Source: a virus. Taken from it: DNA of 24,495 nt. The notes beneath the pieces are model-generated. The model was not told the DNA's origin and ran no database searches. It worked only from the letters and a program-made list of their open reading frames with translations. The position numbers and the translations under genes are program-made. Below are positions 2,760-22,373 of this stretch, in pieces. Location: positions 1 through 24,495 of IMG/VR virus record IMGVR_UViG_3300027749_000471. One strand, given 5' to 3'. Numbering within the stretch: position 1 is the stretch's first letter; each line of letters begins with the position of its first letter.

Positions 2760-4432
2760 TGGCAACAATGCCAAACACCAATATCAATATTCCCTATTCG
2801 GCGTTTATTGATGAAACTACGGGTAGACCAACTCAGGCGTGGCTGTTGTGGTTGATGAGCCCAAATTTTATTACTGTAAGTCTTGGTTCTGCATTGGCGG
2901 TTACTTCTGGCGGTACAGGGTTAACCACTATTCCTACCAATGGTCAGCTTTTGATTGGTAACGGGTCAGGATATACCCTAAACACACTTGGCACTGGTGT
3001 TGGTATTTCAGTTGTCAATGCAGCAGGCACAATCACAGTTGCAAATACGGGTGTTCTGTCAAATATTGCAGGCAGTGGCATATCGGTGTCGAGCGCCACA
3101 GGTGATGTAACCATTGCCAATACTGGCGTTTTGTCATTCAGTGGCGGCACAACTGGATTGACCCCAGTAACGGCTACAACAGGTGCAGTTACTTTGGCTG
3201 GCACATTAGGTATTACCAACGGCGGCACAAACGGCTCTGCAACCCCTACAGCTTACGGCGTTGCCTATGGCACGGGTACAGCGTATGCGTTTACTGCTGC
3301 GGGTACATCTAAACAAGCATTGCTTGCCAACACTGGCTCTGCACCTACTTGGACAACCTTAACCAGCGGCTCATCTATTTTGTATGGCGATGGGTCAGGC
3401 GGTTTTAGCAATGTCACTATTGGCACGGGAGTTAGCTTTGTCGCAGGCACTTTGTCAGCTACTGGATCGGGCGGCACTGTTACATCTGTCACTGGTACAA
3501 GCCCTGTAGTCTCCAGCGGCGGCACAACCCCTGCAATTAGCTTGGCAACTGCTTATGGCGATACCCTAAACCCTTATGCGGCAAAGACTGCTAATTATGT
3601 GTTGGCTGGCCCAACAACGGGGACGGCAACTGTTCCGACTTTTCGCGCGCTTGTCTCCGCAGATATTCCAAGCCTTAGCTATGTAACTTCAGTTAGTTTT
3701 ACTGGCGGCATCATCACAGTTGCTACGCCGACCACCACCCCTGCTTTCACAGTGGCTGGAACAAGCGGTGGTATACCTTATTTTTCCAGCGCAACAACTT
3801 GGGCAACCTCTGCTGCATTAACCCAGTATGGCGTTGTTTATGGCGGCGGGGCGGGTGCTGCGCCTGTTTCTACGGCGGCAGGAACTACAGGCCAAGTACT
3901 AACAGCAACTACTGGGGCAGCGCCTACTTGGGCAGCGCCAGCAACCAGCGGCACGGTCACAAGCGTTTCTGTGGTGTCTGCCAACGGCTTTGCGGGAACT
4001 GTGGCAACGGCTACAACAACTCCAGCAATTACCCTAACTACCAGCGTCACAGGGGTTTTAAAGGGTAACGGCACGGCAATTTCTGCTGCTGTTGTAAACA
4101 CCGACTACTTAGCACCGTCTGCGCCAGTGACCAAGACCGCCAATTTCACCGTTGCAGATACTGACGTTTGGCTGATAAACAACAAAACAGGGTCAACCTG
4201 TACGGTGACTTTGCCAGCAGCTTCAAGTTGGTCAGGACGGGTTTTGCGGTTTTTGAATTACCAAGCGCAAACCGTTGTGTCGGCATCTTCCAATGTTGTG
4301 CCTCTGACGGGCGGGGCGGCTGCTACCTCCATTTTGCTGGCAAGCACAGGCGATTCTGCTACGCTGGTATCGGACGGCACAAACTGGTTGATGACTCAGT
4401 ACATACCAAATAATATCTTGTTGCTGGAATAA
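2759..4432 (+). CDS. Tail fibre protein with glycine/threonine repeats
   Basis: This 557-aa protein is very rich in Gly, Thr, Ser, Ala and Val and low in charge, typical of a trimeric beta-structured fibre. Residues 1-40 (NINIPYSAFIDETTGRPTQ, then AWLLWL) look like a virion-anchoring N-terminal domain. The shaft holds degenerate repeats, including GTVTSVTGTSPVVSSGGTTP and a related GTVTSVSVVSANGF block. Two longer similar units begin TAYGVAYGTGTAYAF and TQYGVVYGGGAGAAP and each ends near APTW. A VLKGNGTAISAAVVNTDYL motif common in phage fibres lies near residue 440. The C-terminal ~100 residues, less repetitive, probably form the tip. It overlaps the gp10-like gene by TAATG and is the likely receptor-binding protein. 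Confidence 0.85.
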   Translation: MATMPNTNINIPYSAFIDETTGRPTQAWLLWLMSPNFITVSLGSALAVTSGGTGLTTIPTNGQLLIGNGSGYTLNTLGTGVGISVVNAAGTITVANTGVLSNIAGSGISVSSATGDVTIANTGVLSFSGGTTGLTPVTATTGAVTLAGTLGITNGGTNGSATPTAYGVAYGTGTAYAFTAAGTSKQALLANTGSAPTWTTLTSGSSILYGDGSGGFSNVTIGTGVSFVAGTLSATGSGGTVTSVTGTSPVVSSGGTTPAISLATAYGDTLNPYAAKTANYVLAGPTTGTATVPTFRALVSADIPSLSYVTSVSFTGGIITVATPTTTPAFTVAGTSGGIPYFSSATTWATSAALTQYGVVYGGGAGAAPVSTAAGTTGQVLTATTGAAPTWAAPATSGTVTSVSVVSANGFAGTVATATTTPAITLTTSVTGVLKGNGTAISAAVVNTDYLAPSAPVTKTANFTVADTDVWLINNKTGSTCTVTLPAASSWSGRVLRFLNYQAQTVVSASSNVVPLTGGAAATSILLASTGDSATLVSDGTNWLMTQYIPNNILLLE

Positions 4433-17792: not shown

Positions 17793-18563
17793 ATGCACTT
17801 TTATCAGTTTCATATTGGCGACTACAAGTCCCATACGCACCACCTTAGTTTGATTGAAGATTTGGCTTTTCGCCGACTTCTTGACCATTACTATTTGCAC
17901 GAAGCGCCCATTAAACAGCGTGATATTGCCCGTCAAATTGGTATGCGGGACAACGAACAAGAAGTTTTGACAGTACTTAACGAGTTCTTTGTTTCAACTG
18001 ACAAAGGCTTTGTAAACCCGCGTGCTGATGAGGAAATTGCCAAATATCGCAAGTTTTCAGAGGACGGAAAAAAAGGGGCGCACAAGCGGTGGCATAAGGA
18101 TAGCAATGGGGAGGCTAATAGCCCCCCTAATGCGACCCCAATAGCAACCAATAACCAAGAACCAATAACCAATAACCAATTAAAACCCTCTATATGTCCA
18201 CCTGAAGGTGAACCTGACCCACCAAAAAAGTTACCAGGCTGTGACCACAAGGCAGTCATTGAGCTGTACCACCAAAACCTGCCCACAATGCGTAGGGTAG
18301 AGGTTTGGAACGAAACAAGGGCTGGATACCTGCGACAACGATGGCGGGAGGTAGCGGCAGAGCTGGCGCAAGCAAACGACATTGATGCCAATAATGTGCT
18401 TAACTGGTGGGGACAGTTTTTCCAATCTGTCAGCAAATCCAGATTTTTAACTGGCAGGGTCAACGGCAAGGACGGTCGGGCATTTGTTGCCGACTTGGAA
18501 TGGATACTAAAACCAAGCAATTTTGCAAAAATCGTAGAGGGAAAATATCATGGCAATAACTAA
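17793..18563 (+). CDS. DUF1376 replication protein, O-like
   Basis: The first ~95 residues match DUF1376 (MHFYQFHIGDYKSHTHHLS, then EDLAFRRLLDHYYLHEAPI, KGFVNPRADEEIAKY). This domain is often at the N-terminus of phage replication initiators and resembles a winged helix. A low-complexity Asn/Gln/Pro linker (about 110-145) comes from five DNA heptamers. The C-terminal ~110 residues (ETRAGYLRQRWREVAAELAQ to LEWILKPSNFAKIVEGKY) form a domain common in lambda O-like proteins. The gene follows cro, the O position. I infer it binds its own internal repeats and recruits host or phage helicase. 256 aa; ATG with GAGG 5 nt upstream. Confidence 0.8.
   Translation: MHFYQFHIGDYKSHTHHLSLIEDLAFRRLLDHYYLHEAPIKQRDIARQIGMRDNEQEVLTVLNEFFVSTDKGFVNPRADEEIAKYRKFSEDGKKGAHKRWHKDSNGEANSPPNATPIATNNQEPITNNQLKPSICPPEGEPDPPKKLPGCDHKAVIELYHQNLPTMRRVEVWNETRAGYLRQRWREVAAELAQANDIDANNVLNWWGQFFQSVSKSRFLTGRVNGKDGRAFVADLEWILKPSNFAKIVEGKYHGNN
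18146..18180 (+). repeat. Five tandem AACCAAT heptamers, candidate replication origin
   Basis: Five perfectly contiguous 7-bp units: AACCAAT, AACCAAG, then AACCAAT three times. They lie inside the O-like gene, as the lambda origin lies inside O, and are followed by an A+T-rich stretch (TTAAAACC, CTCTATATG). Confidence 0.6.
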
Positions 18564-18750
18564 ATTCACCCAGCAAAAAGATGATTCTTTTGATGAAACG
18601 CTGCGTTTAATGTGTTCAGTACACGGCTGCCCAAACCGCTGGTTAGTCCATTCTGACGGCGAAAAACCTAAGTGTTCAAAGCACCAATGGCAAAGAACTG
18701 AGAAAAAACCTGCTGTCCATAGTTGGCATGAGGTTGGGGAGGAGTTTTGA
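18550..18750 (+). CDS. Small zinc-ribbon-like protein (66 aa)
   Basis: Cys22, Cys27, Cys42 and His45 (MCSVHGCPNRW and KCSKHQW) form a probable single zinc site. The rest is short and polar. It overlaps the end of the replication gene by 14 nt and precedes the methyltransferase locus. Its own tail supplies the GGGGAGGAG ribosome-binding site used by the two following overlapping frames. Such proteins occur in phage replication modules; function not known, nucleic-acid binding likely. Confidence 0.75.
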   Translation: MAITKFTQQKDDSFDETLRLMCSVHGCPNRWLVHSDGEKPKCSKHQWQRTEKKPAVHSWHEVGEEF

Positions 18751-19622
18751 ATGAGCTGGCTCTTTTCGCAGGCGCTGGTGGTGGAATACTTGGCGGCAAA
18801 CTCCTTGGATGGCGAACCGTCTGTGCAGTCGAATGGGAAGCCTACCCAGCAAGCGTACTGTGCGCCAGACAAAATGATGGCATTCTCCCGCCTTTTCCGA
18901 TTTGGGATGACGTACAAACCTTTGACGGAAATCCCTGGCGAGGAATTGTCAATGTCGTCAGTGGTGGCTTTCCATGTCAAGACATTAGTGTCGCCGGCAA
19001 CGGAGACGGACTTGACGGAGAACGATCAGGAATGTGGCGAGAAATGGCACGGATTATTAGCGAAGTTCGACCTAGATACGCATTCGTGGAGAACAGTCCA
19101 ATGCTCGTTACTAGAGGACTTGAACGAGTCCTTGCAGACCTTACCTCAATGGGGTATGACAGTAGGTGGGGAGTTATATCTGCTGCCGACATTGGTGCAA
19201 AACATAAACGAGAACGAATTTGGATTGTGGCTCACTCCGACAGCTACAAACATCTCAGGAAGAAGTCAGGAAGCAATGGAACATCGAATCAAATGGAGAG
19301 AGCGTTTGGGCAGAAAAACAGTTCCACCGGGCAATTTAGCAGAACAAATAATGTTGTCGGGGGTAATTCCATGTGTGGACATGAAAAAACCAACCATGTG
19401 GGGAACGCCCAAGGCGCAGGATTCACGCCATGCTTTGAGGGACAGAGGCAAGGGGAATCTTGGGGAACAAGTATCGGGTCTGCACAATGGTGGGAAACTG
19501 AACCCAACGTGGACAGAGTGGTTGATGGGTTGGCCTCTAGAGTGGACAGACTTAAAGCCATTGGAAATGGACAAGTCCCCCTCTGTGCTGCCACTGCCTG
19601 GAGAATCTTAAGTGAACCATGA
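18747..19622 (+). CDS. C5-cytosine DNA methyltransferase (Dcm-like)
   Basis: Transfers a methyl group from SAM to cytosine C5, probably shielding phage DNA from host restriction. Motifs are visible in order: I FAGAGGGILGG (residues 7-17), IV GGFPCQDISVAG with the catalytic Cys, VI FVENSP, VIII KHKRERIWIVAHS and X KAIGNGQVPLCAATAW. The region between VIII and X (about 165-270), which holds the target-recognition domain, is Gly/Asn/Ser-rich and looks poorly structured. The start is TTG at 18747, overlapping the previous TGA. 291 aa is short for the family. The whole gene is overlapped by a 286-codon frame. No cognate endonuclease is adjacent, so it is an orphan enzyme. Confidence 0.85.
   Translation: MNELALFAGAGGGILGGKLLGWRTVCAVEWEAYPASVLCARQNDGILPPFPIWDDVQTFDGNPWRGIVNVVSGGFPCQDISVAGNGDGLDGERSGMWREMARIISEVRPRYAFVENSPMLVTRGLERVLADLTSMGYDSRWGVISAADIGAKHKRERIWIVAHSDSYKHLRKKSGSNGTSNQMERAFGQKNSSTGQFSRTNNVVGGNSMCGHEKTNHVGNAQGAGFTPCFEGQRQGESWGTSIGSAQWWETEPNVDRVVDGLASRVDRLKAIGNGQVPLCAATAWRILSEP
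18751..19611 (+). CDS. Overlapping-frame protein within the methyltransferase gene (286 aa)
   Basis: Read in the +1 frame relative to the methyltransferase, from ATG 18751 with AGGAG at 18740-18744 (6-nt spacing, better than for the methyltransferase start). It is not noise-like: it has ordered segments such as LDTHSWRTVQCSLLEDLNES, LQTLPQWGMTVGGELYLLPT, GLWLTPTATN, MWGTPKAQDSRH and LNPTWTEWLMGWPLEWTDL. I recall this TPTA / LNPxWxEWLMGWP style from phage and prophage proteins encoded beside Dcm-type enzymes. Its function is unknown; a role as partner or specificity factor of the methyltransferase is conceivable. The frame ends 11 nt before the methyltransferase stop. It could be an assembled pair with it or, less likely, a shadow. 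Confidence 0.65.
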   Translation: MSWLFSQALVVEYLAANSLDGEPSVQSNGKPTQQAYCAPDKMMAFSRLFRFGMTYKPLTEIPGEELSMSSVVAFHVKTLVSPATETDLTENDQECGEKWHGLLAKFDLDTHSWRTVQCSLLEDLNESLQTLPQWGMTVGGELYLLPTLVQNINENEFGLWLTPTATNISGRSQEAMEHRIKWRERLGRKTVPPGNLAEQIMLSGVIPCVDMKKPTMWGTPKAQDSRHALRDRGKGNLGEQVSGLHNGGKLNPTWTEWLMGWPLEWTDLKPLEMDKSPSVLPLPGES

Positions 19623-19891
19623 AAGACTTGTTGCAAACTCAATCCTTAGCCGACTTAAAGACGGTGAAGAATTTAGCCAATCTGTCATCCGAACAGCGCT
19701 TATTGATGCAGGAGACCTTGCACCAGACCGAGGCCAAGGATTGGATCAGGCGCTACAAGAAAAAGATTCGGGAAGAGGGGAAAGCCGAGGCATTAGCCTG
19801 GTGGCAGAAAATCTTATCCGACTTAGTGAAGCGGCGTGGACAGAAAGCTGCTGATGACTTACGGAGACGCATGAATGAGATACGCAGCTAA
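19619..19891 (+). CDS. Small basic helical phage protein (90 aa)
   Basis: Starts ATGA over the methyltransferase stop. Highly helical and basic, with a C-terminal segment (LVKRRGQKAADDLRRRMNEI) that I know from many small proteins in phage replication modules, without assigned function. The middle holds WIRRYKKKIREEGKAEALAWW. It overlaps the following nuclease gene by 17 nt. A second frame (80 aa from GTG 19612) overlaps it but is weaker. Confidence 0.75.
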   Translation: MKDLLQTQSLADLKTVKNLANLSSEQRLLMQETLHQTEAKDWIRRYKKKIREEGKAEALAWWQKILSDLVKRRGQKAADDLRRRMNEIRS

Positions 19892-20141
19892 GGTGGACAG
19901 TAATCAAGATGCCATAGTCAGCACGTTAAGGGCTGCTGGCGCATACGTTTGGATCATTGGTTTGCCGGTTGATCTTTTGGTGGGGTATGGCAACCATACA
20001 TTCCTTGTGGAAATCAAACGTACCGCTAAAAGCCGTTTTACACCGTTACAACGCAATTTTTTTGAAAGTTGGTGTGGAGGTACTTTGGCAAGGATTGACA
20101 GCCCTGACGGGGCTTTAAAAATGATTGGGGTGCTGAAGTGA
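19875..20141 (+). CDS. PD-(D/E)XK nuclease, Holliday-junction-resolvase / VRR-NUC-like
   Basis: A minimal 88-aa nuclease fold: N-terminal helix with SNQDAIVSTLRAAG, then catalytic Asp33 in LPVDLLVGY, Glu46 and Lys48 in FLVEIKRTA, and a helix with TPLQRNFFESW. This matches small phage resolvase-like or VRR-NUC nucleases that cut branched DNA. Its neighbours NinB and an HNH protein suggest a recombination and junction-processing group like the lambda nin region. The start at 19875 overlaps the preceding gene. Confidence 0.8.
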   Translation: MRYAAKVDSNQDAIVSTLRAAGAYVWIIGLPVDLLVGYGNHTFLVEIKRTAKSRFTPLQRNFFESWCGGTLARIDSPDGALKMIGVLK

Positions 20142-20416
20142 GAAGCCTTGAGCAAAACCGACTAATGTGGGCAAATCTTGAGGACATTGCCCAGCAAGTG
20201 GTTTGGTACGGTCAAAAGCTACCCAAGGAAGAATGGAAAGATGTGTTAACTGCTGCACTGAAAAAACAAAAGATTGTGCCAGGCATAGAGGGTGGGTTTG
20301 TGGTCATTGGCGCAAGAACCAGCAAAATGAGCGTGGCAGAAATGACCGAACTGATTGAGCTGTCATCCATGTTTGGCGCACAGCAAGGTGTTAAGTTTCG
20401 GGCTTTAGAGGAATAA
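20138..20416 (+). CDS. ninB: NinB-family recombination protein
   Basis: NinB (Orf of lambda) binds ssDNA and SSB and can replace RecFOR functions in phage recombination. The N-terminus (RSLEQNRLMWANLEDIAQQV) carries the family QN..W pattern, followed by LPKEEWKDVLTAALKKQKIV. The C-terminal MSVAEMTELIELSSMFGAQQ and GVKF segment is also typical. At 92 aa it is a short member compared with about 140 for lambda. The GTG start overlaps the upstream stop as GTGA. Confidence 0.85.
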   Translation: MRSLEQNRLMWANLEDIAQQVVWYGQKLPKEEWKDVLTAALKKQKIVPGIEGGFVVIGARTSKMSVAEMTELIELSSMFGAQQGVKFRALEE

Positions 20417-21237: not shown

Positions 21238-21441
21238 ATGAAAGATATGAACGGCAAATACGGCGCTAACATTCCAATGCCCAAAGGCGTAACTTCCTCT
21301 GACGGCACTGGCTCACAAGGCAGCGCCAAAAAGAACATTCCGAACGCAGCTACCAATGCTGTGGGCGCAGATAAGAAATTTGACGGCGGTAAAACCAGCG
21401 GTGTGGCGTATGTCCATGACCGCAAGTGCTATCAAGACTAA
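21238..21441 (+). CDS. Small Gly/Lys-rich protein (67 aa)
   Basis: AAGGAG precedes ATG 21238. The protein is polar and probably extended (KYGANIPMPKGVTSSDGTGS) and ends SGVAYVHDRKCYQD. No domain is recognised. It lies at the beginning of the late operon and overlaps the next gene as TAATG, so it is probably a small virion or assembly component. Confidence 0.7.
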   Translation: MKDMNGKYGANIPMPKGVTSSDGTGSQGSAKKNIPNAATNAVGADKKFDGGKTSGVAYVHDRKCYQD

Positions 21442-22373
21442 TGGCTATTTCGCTGTCCTCATTGATGACGGCGGGGCGACAAAGCCTTAACCCTGACCAG
21501 ATCAGGGCATCATTGTTATTGCCGCCTGCTGCATCACAAGCACCAGCTACGCCTGAACAATCTGCAAATCCAATTACACAGGCATATCAAAATCGGTTTT
21601 TAAACGATTACGAGCAGCTAAAAGCGGAATATCAAGCCCATGAAGAATCCAAGGGCGGCAAGATCATAAACACTGATGTAGCACGGGAAATGTCGCCTGA
21701 ATACAGGGCTGACCGCACTAAATCCGCTGATGTACACGAGCCAGCAAGTGCTTTCATGAAAAGATATTACGCTGAAAAGCTATCGCAACCGACCCCAAGA
21801 GACAAAGACAATACGGTAGTTTTCAGTGCTGGCGGTACTGGTGCAGGCAAGACTACGGCGTTAGATATGTTGGAAGCACATGATCCAGCCCTGGCACGGG
21901 CAGAGATGATCTATGACACCAACATGAATAAGTTTGAAACGGCTGACCAAAAGATCAAACAAGCCTTGGATGCAAAGCGCAAAGTGCGGATTATTTACAC
22001 TTATCGAGACCCTGCTGAAGCCTTAGAACATGGCGCATTGGCACGAGCAGATAGGATGGAGAAATCCAAAGGATCAGGGCGCACAGTACCAATTGAAGAA
22101 CATTTAAAAACTCACATTGGCGCACGAAAAGTCATTGATGAATTGCAAAAAAAATACAAAAATAACCCTAAAGTTGATATTCAAGTTGTTGATAATTCGT
22201 TAGGCAGGGGCAACGCAAGAGCAAGCCAGCTTGACAAGCTGCCTAAATTAAACGAAAATGAAGTCAAAAGGAGGTTACATGAGACCCTTGAACGAGTCAG
22301 AGCTACCGGAATCGGTGGGACTAAGCCCATCTCCGATGCCATCTACCACGGCACGAGAGGCAACACCCGCTGA
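21441..22373 (+). CDS. Zeta-toxin-like P-loop NTPase (310 aa)
   Basis: Residues 1-125 are Pro/Ala-rich then helical. A Walker A motif follows, SAGGTGAGKTTALD (about 129-142), then IYDTNM, a YRDPAEALEH segment and SKGSGRTVPIEEHLKTHI. These match zeta-toxin-type kinases (GxxGAGK, acidic catalytic site, GR.VP). Zeta toxins phosphorylate UDP-N-acetylglucosamine and block wall synthesis. No epsilon-type antitoxin is adjacent. The start at 21441 (TAATG overlap) is preferred over 21426 inside the previous gene. The role could be host inhibition or a polyvalent virion enzyme. The C-terminus overlaps the next gene by 95 nt. Confidence 0.75.
   Translation: MAISLSSLMTAGRQSLNPDQIRASLLLPPAASQAPATPEQSANPITQAYQNRFLNDYEQLKAEYQAHEESKGGKIINTDVAREMSPEYRADRTKSADVHEPASAFMKRYYAEKLSQPTPRDKDNTVVFSAGGTGAGKTTALDMLEAHDPALARAEMIYDTNMNKFETADQKIKQALDAKRKVRIIYTYRDPAEALEHGALARADRMEKSKGSGRTVPIEEHLKTHIGARKVIDELQKKYKNNPKVDIQVVDNSLGRGNARASQLDKLPKLNENEVKRRLHETLERVRATGIGGTKPISDAIYHGTRGNTR

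Follow-up and report, generated by a model that had tools for sequence, protein, structure and literature searches.

Two nested reading frames at one viral locus

In a 24.5 kb virus record, the whole of which is referred to here as the window, a cytosine methyltransferase gene (alpha, frame 1) and a second reading frame of nearly equal length (beta, frame 2, +1 relative to alpha) are read from the same strand of the same DNA. Is the second frame a gene and, if so, what do its product and the methyltransferase do together? Both frames are open over the full extent reported in the initial annotation, with stops 11 nt apart as described there and starts 4 nt apart, giving a near-total overlap (Table 1). 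That annotation had also held that a ribosome-binding site common to both starts suits the second frame better; the Shine-Dalgarno-like GGGGAGGAG stands 6 nt from the beta ATG at 18751 and 2 nt from the alpha TTG at 18747. Many homologous loci carry a GGAG-type site 5–10 nt 5' of the beta ATG. Alpha may start by translational coupling, since the TGA of an upstream 66-aa ORF overlaps its TTG (TTGA). The product of this upstream ORF, which had no family match in Pfam and phrog searches, has paired cysteines (CSVHGCPNRW...CSKHQW) in a zinc-finger-like arrangement.

The openness of both frames at this locus is well beyond chance. Synonymous shuffling of frame-1 codons introduced 4.8 stops into frame 2 on average and left it stop-free in 11 of 10,000 trials; shuffling of frame-2 codons left frame 1 open in none of 10,000.

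Table 1. Features of the nested locus, in window coordinates
Feature	Position	Strand	Description and basis
Upstream ORF	18550..18750	+	66 aa; ORF list and sequence; context, outside the enzyme
Shine-Dalgarno-like GGGGAGGAG	18736..18744	+	common to both frames; sequence
Alpha, frame 1	18747..19622	+	291 aa, TTG start; PF00145 (E 2.6e-31), phrog_363 (E 1.6e-67)
Beta, frame 2 (+1)	18751..19611	+	286 aa, ATG start; phrog_1008 ('DNA methyltransferase', E 2.9e-20)
Alpha motif I, FAGAGGG	18765..18785	+	SAM binding; invariant in 59-sequence alignment
Alpha motif IV, GGFPCQ	18963..18980	+	catalytic Cys at 18975–18977; G73–C77 invariant, Q78 nearly so (59-sequence alignment)
Beta putative target-recognition region	19048..19491	+	residues ~100–247; selection; matching segment in single-chain relative L294
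Alpha motif VI, ENSP	19089..19100	+	E115–P118 invariant (59-sequence alignment)
Alpha motif VIII, KRERIWIVA	19206..19232	+	R155, R157, W159 invariant (59-sequence alignment)
Beta motif IX, KLNPTWTEWLMGWPLEWT	19495..19548	+	beta NN/NS 0.06, SN/SS 0.14
Alpha motif X, RLKAIGNGQVPLCAA	19548..19592	+	largely invariant; alpha NN/SN 0.02, beta unconstrained

The second frame stays open across viral homologues

With alpha or beta as the query, 160 viral loci were retrieved, of which 105 are distinct. Stops in relatives, which the initial annotation had named as the mark of a chance shadow, do not appear: frame 2 is open across the match in all 105 distinct loci, compared with about 13–28 stops in the third frame. 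Were the methyltransferase alone translated, its conserved motifs holding frame 2 open, alpha-codon shuffling of the homologues predicts a mean of 6.1 stops at each locus, with a stop-free frame in 0.05% of trials. Coding length varies among these open loci (236–355 residues for alpha, 232–346 for beta), so that indels have preserved both frames. Beta starts with ATG in 103 of the 105; an alpha NTG lies 4 nt before this ATG in 82 of 98 loci, and in the other 16 the alpha start lies 9–18 nt further upstream. Two segments that the initial annotation had linked to phage proteins near Dcm enzymes, GLWLTPTATN and LNPTWTEWLMGWP, recur in related loci. At one locus (L151, near position 2762) a stop falls in the alpha frame before motif X and beta is still open.

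Purifying selection acts on both proteins

Differences among homologues were classed by their effect in both frames, using 91 representatives and pairs at least 70% identical. Purifying selection acts on both proteins: gene-wide, the beta ratios are 0.22 for NN/NS (bootstrap CI 0.15–0.30) and 0.39 for SN/SS (0.28–0.60), and the alpha ratios are 0.08 for NN/SN and 0.15 for NS/SS. Simulated selection on alpha alone gives beta ratios of 0.8–1.2, with or without beta stops forbidden. Free variation at synonymous sites of the methyltransferase, a further sign by which a shadow was to be recognized, is likewise contradicted by the SN/SS value, which is about 1 in the neutral simulation.

Constraint is distributed between the frames in the complementary fashion that had been anticipated, falling on alpha at motifs I–VIII and X and on beta in the variable recognition region and motif IX. 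Alpha is held most strongly in codons 2–165 and over motif X (codons 267–286), and beta in codons 206–266, where NN/NS is 0.14 and then 0.06 over motif IX. Across codons 166–245 beta NN/NS is 0.24 and alpha is nearly unconstrained (NN/SN 0.65, NS/SS 3.3); there are few SS sites in the recognition region, so SN/SS is unreliable there and is to be ignored. Codon-preference scores, which are mildly informative, are higher for beta than for alpha in codons 166–245 and higher for alpha than for beta in codons 100–165.

Parts of beta do look as a shadow would. Its NN/NS is 0.99 in codons 2–33 and 0.73 in codons 267–286, and the surroundings of WRTVQCS and the segment GWTDLKPLEMDK are near-forced by alpha motifs VI and X, respectively; the alpha segment 5' of motif X is, for its part, almost dictated by beta motif IX. 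Because stretches of beta are near-forced by alpha motifs VI, VIII and X, protein identity (43%, with E 2e-52, to an Acinetobacter phage) overstates the independent conservation of beta, and the argument is carried by the two-frame analysis and by variants without overlap rather than by raw identity. Yet beta constraint peaks where alpha is nearly free, alpha is without motif IX, and beta-type sequence is kept in the absence of any overlap in one relative (L294, below). As far as sequence allows, a chance shadow of the methyltransferase is refuted, and we give it next to no credence.

Methyltransferase motifs are divided between the two chains

The alpha chain, a C5-cytosine methyltransferase, holds motifs I, IV, VI, VIII and X, in keeping with the catalytic motifs first attributed to it, and its PF00145 motifs are conserved across 59–100 sequences. 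Its likeness to the single-chain enzymes M.HhaI and M.HaeIII, in a profile comparison, covers residues 1–169 only; the recognition region and motif IX differ in lying here on the other chain and in the other frame. Neither a motif IX nor a recognition domain was found in the alpha chain, IX being present in the +1 frame only, and the NCBIfam dcm score of alpha (85.6) falls below the cut-off of 100.65. In split enzymes these two elements join the other motifs only when the pair of chains is taken together.

The missing block is found in beta, where KLNPTWTEWLMGWPLEWT has the position and spacing of a C5 motif IX. Single-chain phage enzymes have an IX-type block in frame with X, as in RLAAAFPEWMMGWPAGWV...GNGVVP of Tweety gp72 and KLTPRECWRLQGFPDWAF...GNSV of a Streptococcus phage, whereas nested loci, in phages as distant as mycobacteriophages and freshwater phages, keep motif IV in frame with X and have IX in the +1 frame. 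The proposed recognition region of beta includes the DNA whose alpha-frame product is variable and of low complexity. Its placement on beta is suggested both by selection, which acts on beta and leaves alpha nearly free, and by L294, in which the matching segment sits in the chain between VIII and IX–X.

Might beta nonetheless have a separate role, regulating or inhibiting alpha, or be an overprinted protein with no relation to it, such as an anti-restriction factor? No Pfam or NCBIfam model and no domain of known function matched it, and no counterpart of its N-terminal 100 residues was found in single-chain enzymes, as such a protein would lead one to expect; against this stand its motif IX, absent from alpha, and the rearranged loci described below, and we consider a separate role very improbable. 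Comparison of beta, a beta profile and IX fragments with PDB sequences gave nothing credible, AlphaFold2 models of both chains (59–76 relatives) were poor, with mean pLDDT of 48 and 44, and were not relied on, and a fold search with the beta model yielded no meaningful similarity. We also considered a hidden HNH element (PMC11855218) as the identity of beta, and rejected it on the grounds that beta extends over the entire gene and contains methyltransferase motif IX.

Rearranged relatives tie alpha and beta to one enzyme

The nested +1 layout recurs in 357 of the 373 loci retrieved. They come from viral and plasmid DNA and from contigs of bacteria and archaea, among them Pseudomonas, Acinetobacter, Burkholderia and Akkermansia contigs, archaeal MAGs and a Leptospira plasmid. 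Two kinds of departure from this layout bear on the relationship between the chains. In seven loci (L258, L272, L273, L281, L302, L311 and L352) alpha stops after motif VIII and motif X is read as part of the beta ORF; an alpha tree, in which six of the seven were placed, indicates on well-supported branches at least five independent changes that moved X to the beta-frame chain. In 13 of the 373 loci, alpha- and beta-type segments lie in one ORF. L294, an Actinomycetota MAG contig, encodes motifs I–VIII, beta-type sequence with IX, and then X in a single chain of 730 aa, although this is one MAG contig only, and the resemblance to beta residues 97–140 is weak (5.8 bits). These X-on-beta and single-chain variants tie alpha and beta to one enzyme; a regulator or unrelated protein would not be expected to bear motif X, as beta-frame ORFs do in five or more lineages, or to be joined to alpha in one chain.

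A different way to unite the motifs would be ribosomal frameshifting, by which one polypeptide would pass into the +1 frame after motif VIII, continue through the recognition region and IX, and return for X. The blocks do follow the canonical order in the DNA (I–VIII, recognition region, IX, X), and at loci with X on beta one +1 shift would suffice for a complete enzyme. The window layout, by contrast, requires two shifts inside one gene, beta keeps its own ATG in nearly all viral loci even where the alpha start moves, and selection acts on the part of beta 5' of wherever the shift might occur (codons 34–99, NN/NS 0.35–0.40), leaving frameshifting only a slight chance of being correct.

Several loci lie apart from this argument. 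Alpha remnants under motif IX in L294 were discounted, as LNPxWVEWLMGWP nearly forces that shadow. Four loci (L175, L203, L324 and L339) were given no weight and may be frameshifted copies; in L324 (273-aa ORF at 957) and L339 (ORF at 3004) the beta ORF enters the alpha linker and X before IX, as though a single indel had exchanged the frames, a layout that could reflect frameshifted copies, sequencing errors or another arrangement. The single-chain loci of CheeseTouch (L379), Wachhund (L380) and Tweety (L381), with the IX block in frame with X, also have, over VI–VIII and beyond, a +1 ORF with many recognition-like segments of the LPTP type, and in Wachhund such segments occur in both frames; these loci are GC-rich, so that chance ORFs are a concern.

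A putative two-subunit methyltransferase

We judge it highly probable, on the basis of sequence comparison, that the two nested genes specify the two subunits of a single C5-cytosine DNA methyltransferase. Alpha would bind SAM, carry out catalysis through motifs I–VIII and supply motif X; beta, started at its own ATG 4 nt downstream in the +1 frame, would supply target recognition and motif IX. Translation of both chains probably begins in a single initiation region, and their assembly would restore the series I–VIII, recognition region, IX and X in space, so that either chain alone should not be fully active. The product would most likely methylate phage DNA against host restriction, a role suggested by its being a phage gene with replication and NinB genes as neighbours.

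The initial annotation had offered the second product as a partner, an inhibitor or a specificity subunit. A partner or specificity subunit is the supported reading, physical partnership being probable; the inhibitor is disfavoured because frame 2 has the motif IX that frame 1 lacks and because similar sequence forms part of the L294 single chain.

Comparison with known systems

M.EcoHK31I (target YGGCCR) is a two-polypeptide C5 methyltransferase whose small polypeptide is read in another frame from inside the gene of the large subunit, a trait shared by the +1 layout described here; M.AquI has the target CYCGRG. The M.EcoHK31I small polypeptide is shorter, at 176 aa, whereas beta approaches alpha in length and covers almost the whole alpha gene, with starts only 4 nt apart. 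The M.EcoHK31I recognition domain has been predicted on its large subunit, whereas our evidence favours the small chain, beta; the present gene also differs in residing in a phage, with no recognized restriction enzyme alongside. The division of motifs is the same, the large M.EcoHK31I subunit having I–VIII and X and the small subunit only IX (PMC3404938), and the two systems are likened by layout.

In M.AquI the large chain has I–VIII and the small chain the distal variable region with IX–X (PMC3404938), the same split as in our seven relatives with X on beta, although in those relatives beta and alpha still overlap in different frames. The window itself differs in having motif X on alpha, so that IX and X do not share the small chain. 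The enzymes of Tweety (gp72), Wachhund and CheeseTouch have similar IX–X blocks in frame, where here IX is on the other chain and in the other frame. The ShiLan element places an out-of-frame HNH endonuclease inside a phage methylase gene (PMC11855218) and so resembles the present locus in having a second protein out of frame within such a gene; it differs in being a mobile homing insertion outside the enzyme, whereas the overlap here would constitute the enzyme's own second half.

A search mostly outside subscription journals found no report of nested methyltransferase subunits in phages. The evidence points to the near-total overlap, the recognition region on beta, the wide distribution and the repeated rearrangement to an M.AquI layout as the apparently new features of this system.

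Implications

Near-complete same-strand overlap of two constrained proteins that are functionally coupled, as these appear to be, is unusual in tailed DNA phages, and its repetition in hundreds of divergent loci, in phages and prophages, makes it a good natural system for studies of overprinting. A broader reading, on which we are evenly divided, is that whole-gene overlap is an old, stable design in a large clade of phage C5 methyltransferases, in which X moves repeatedly between chains and single-chain enzymes re-emerge by duplication and fusion; on these grounds the overlap would act as a reservoir for reshaping enzyme architecture, with the recognition region evolving on whichever frame is freest. 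If this is true, the overlap would be no oddity of one restriction system.

Gene callers report alpha only in some records, beta only in others and both in few, so the enzyme is often half-annotated, and cloning alpha alone might make it look inactive. A split recognition chain could be of use in engineering split methyltransferases, work in which M.EcoHK31I has served before (PMC3439449). Among public annotations, that of Pseudomonas phage phPA-G (L378, 1501–2229) has the beta frame only, as 'hypothetical protein', and those of Paenibacillus phage Bloom (L167) and Streptococcus phage P0095 (L377) label both overlapping frames 'DNA methyltransferase'; the second P0095 ORF may be a shadow, since motif IX is in the main frame of that phage.

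Neighbouring genes in the window

Domain and family searches identified a replication-initiation-like protein at 17793–18563 and NinB at 20138–20416. Directly downstream of the nested pair, ORFs at 19612–19854 (80 aa) and 19619–19891 (90 aa) are likewise in almost complete +1 overlap, the latter with a weak DUF7696 match. Farther along, at 21426–22373, a 315-aa protein has a Zeta toxin-type P-loop domain (PF06414, E 1.3e-14).
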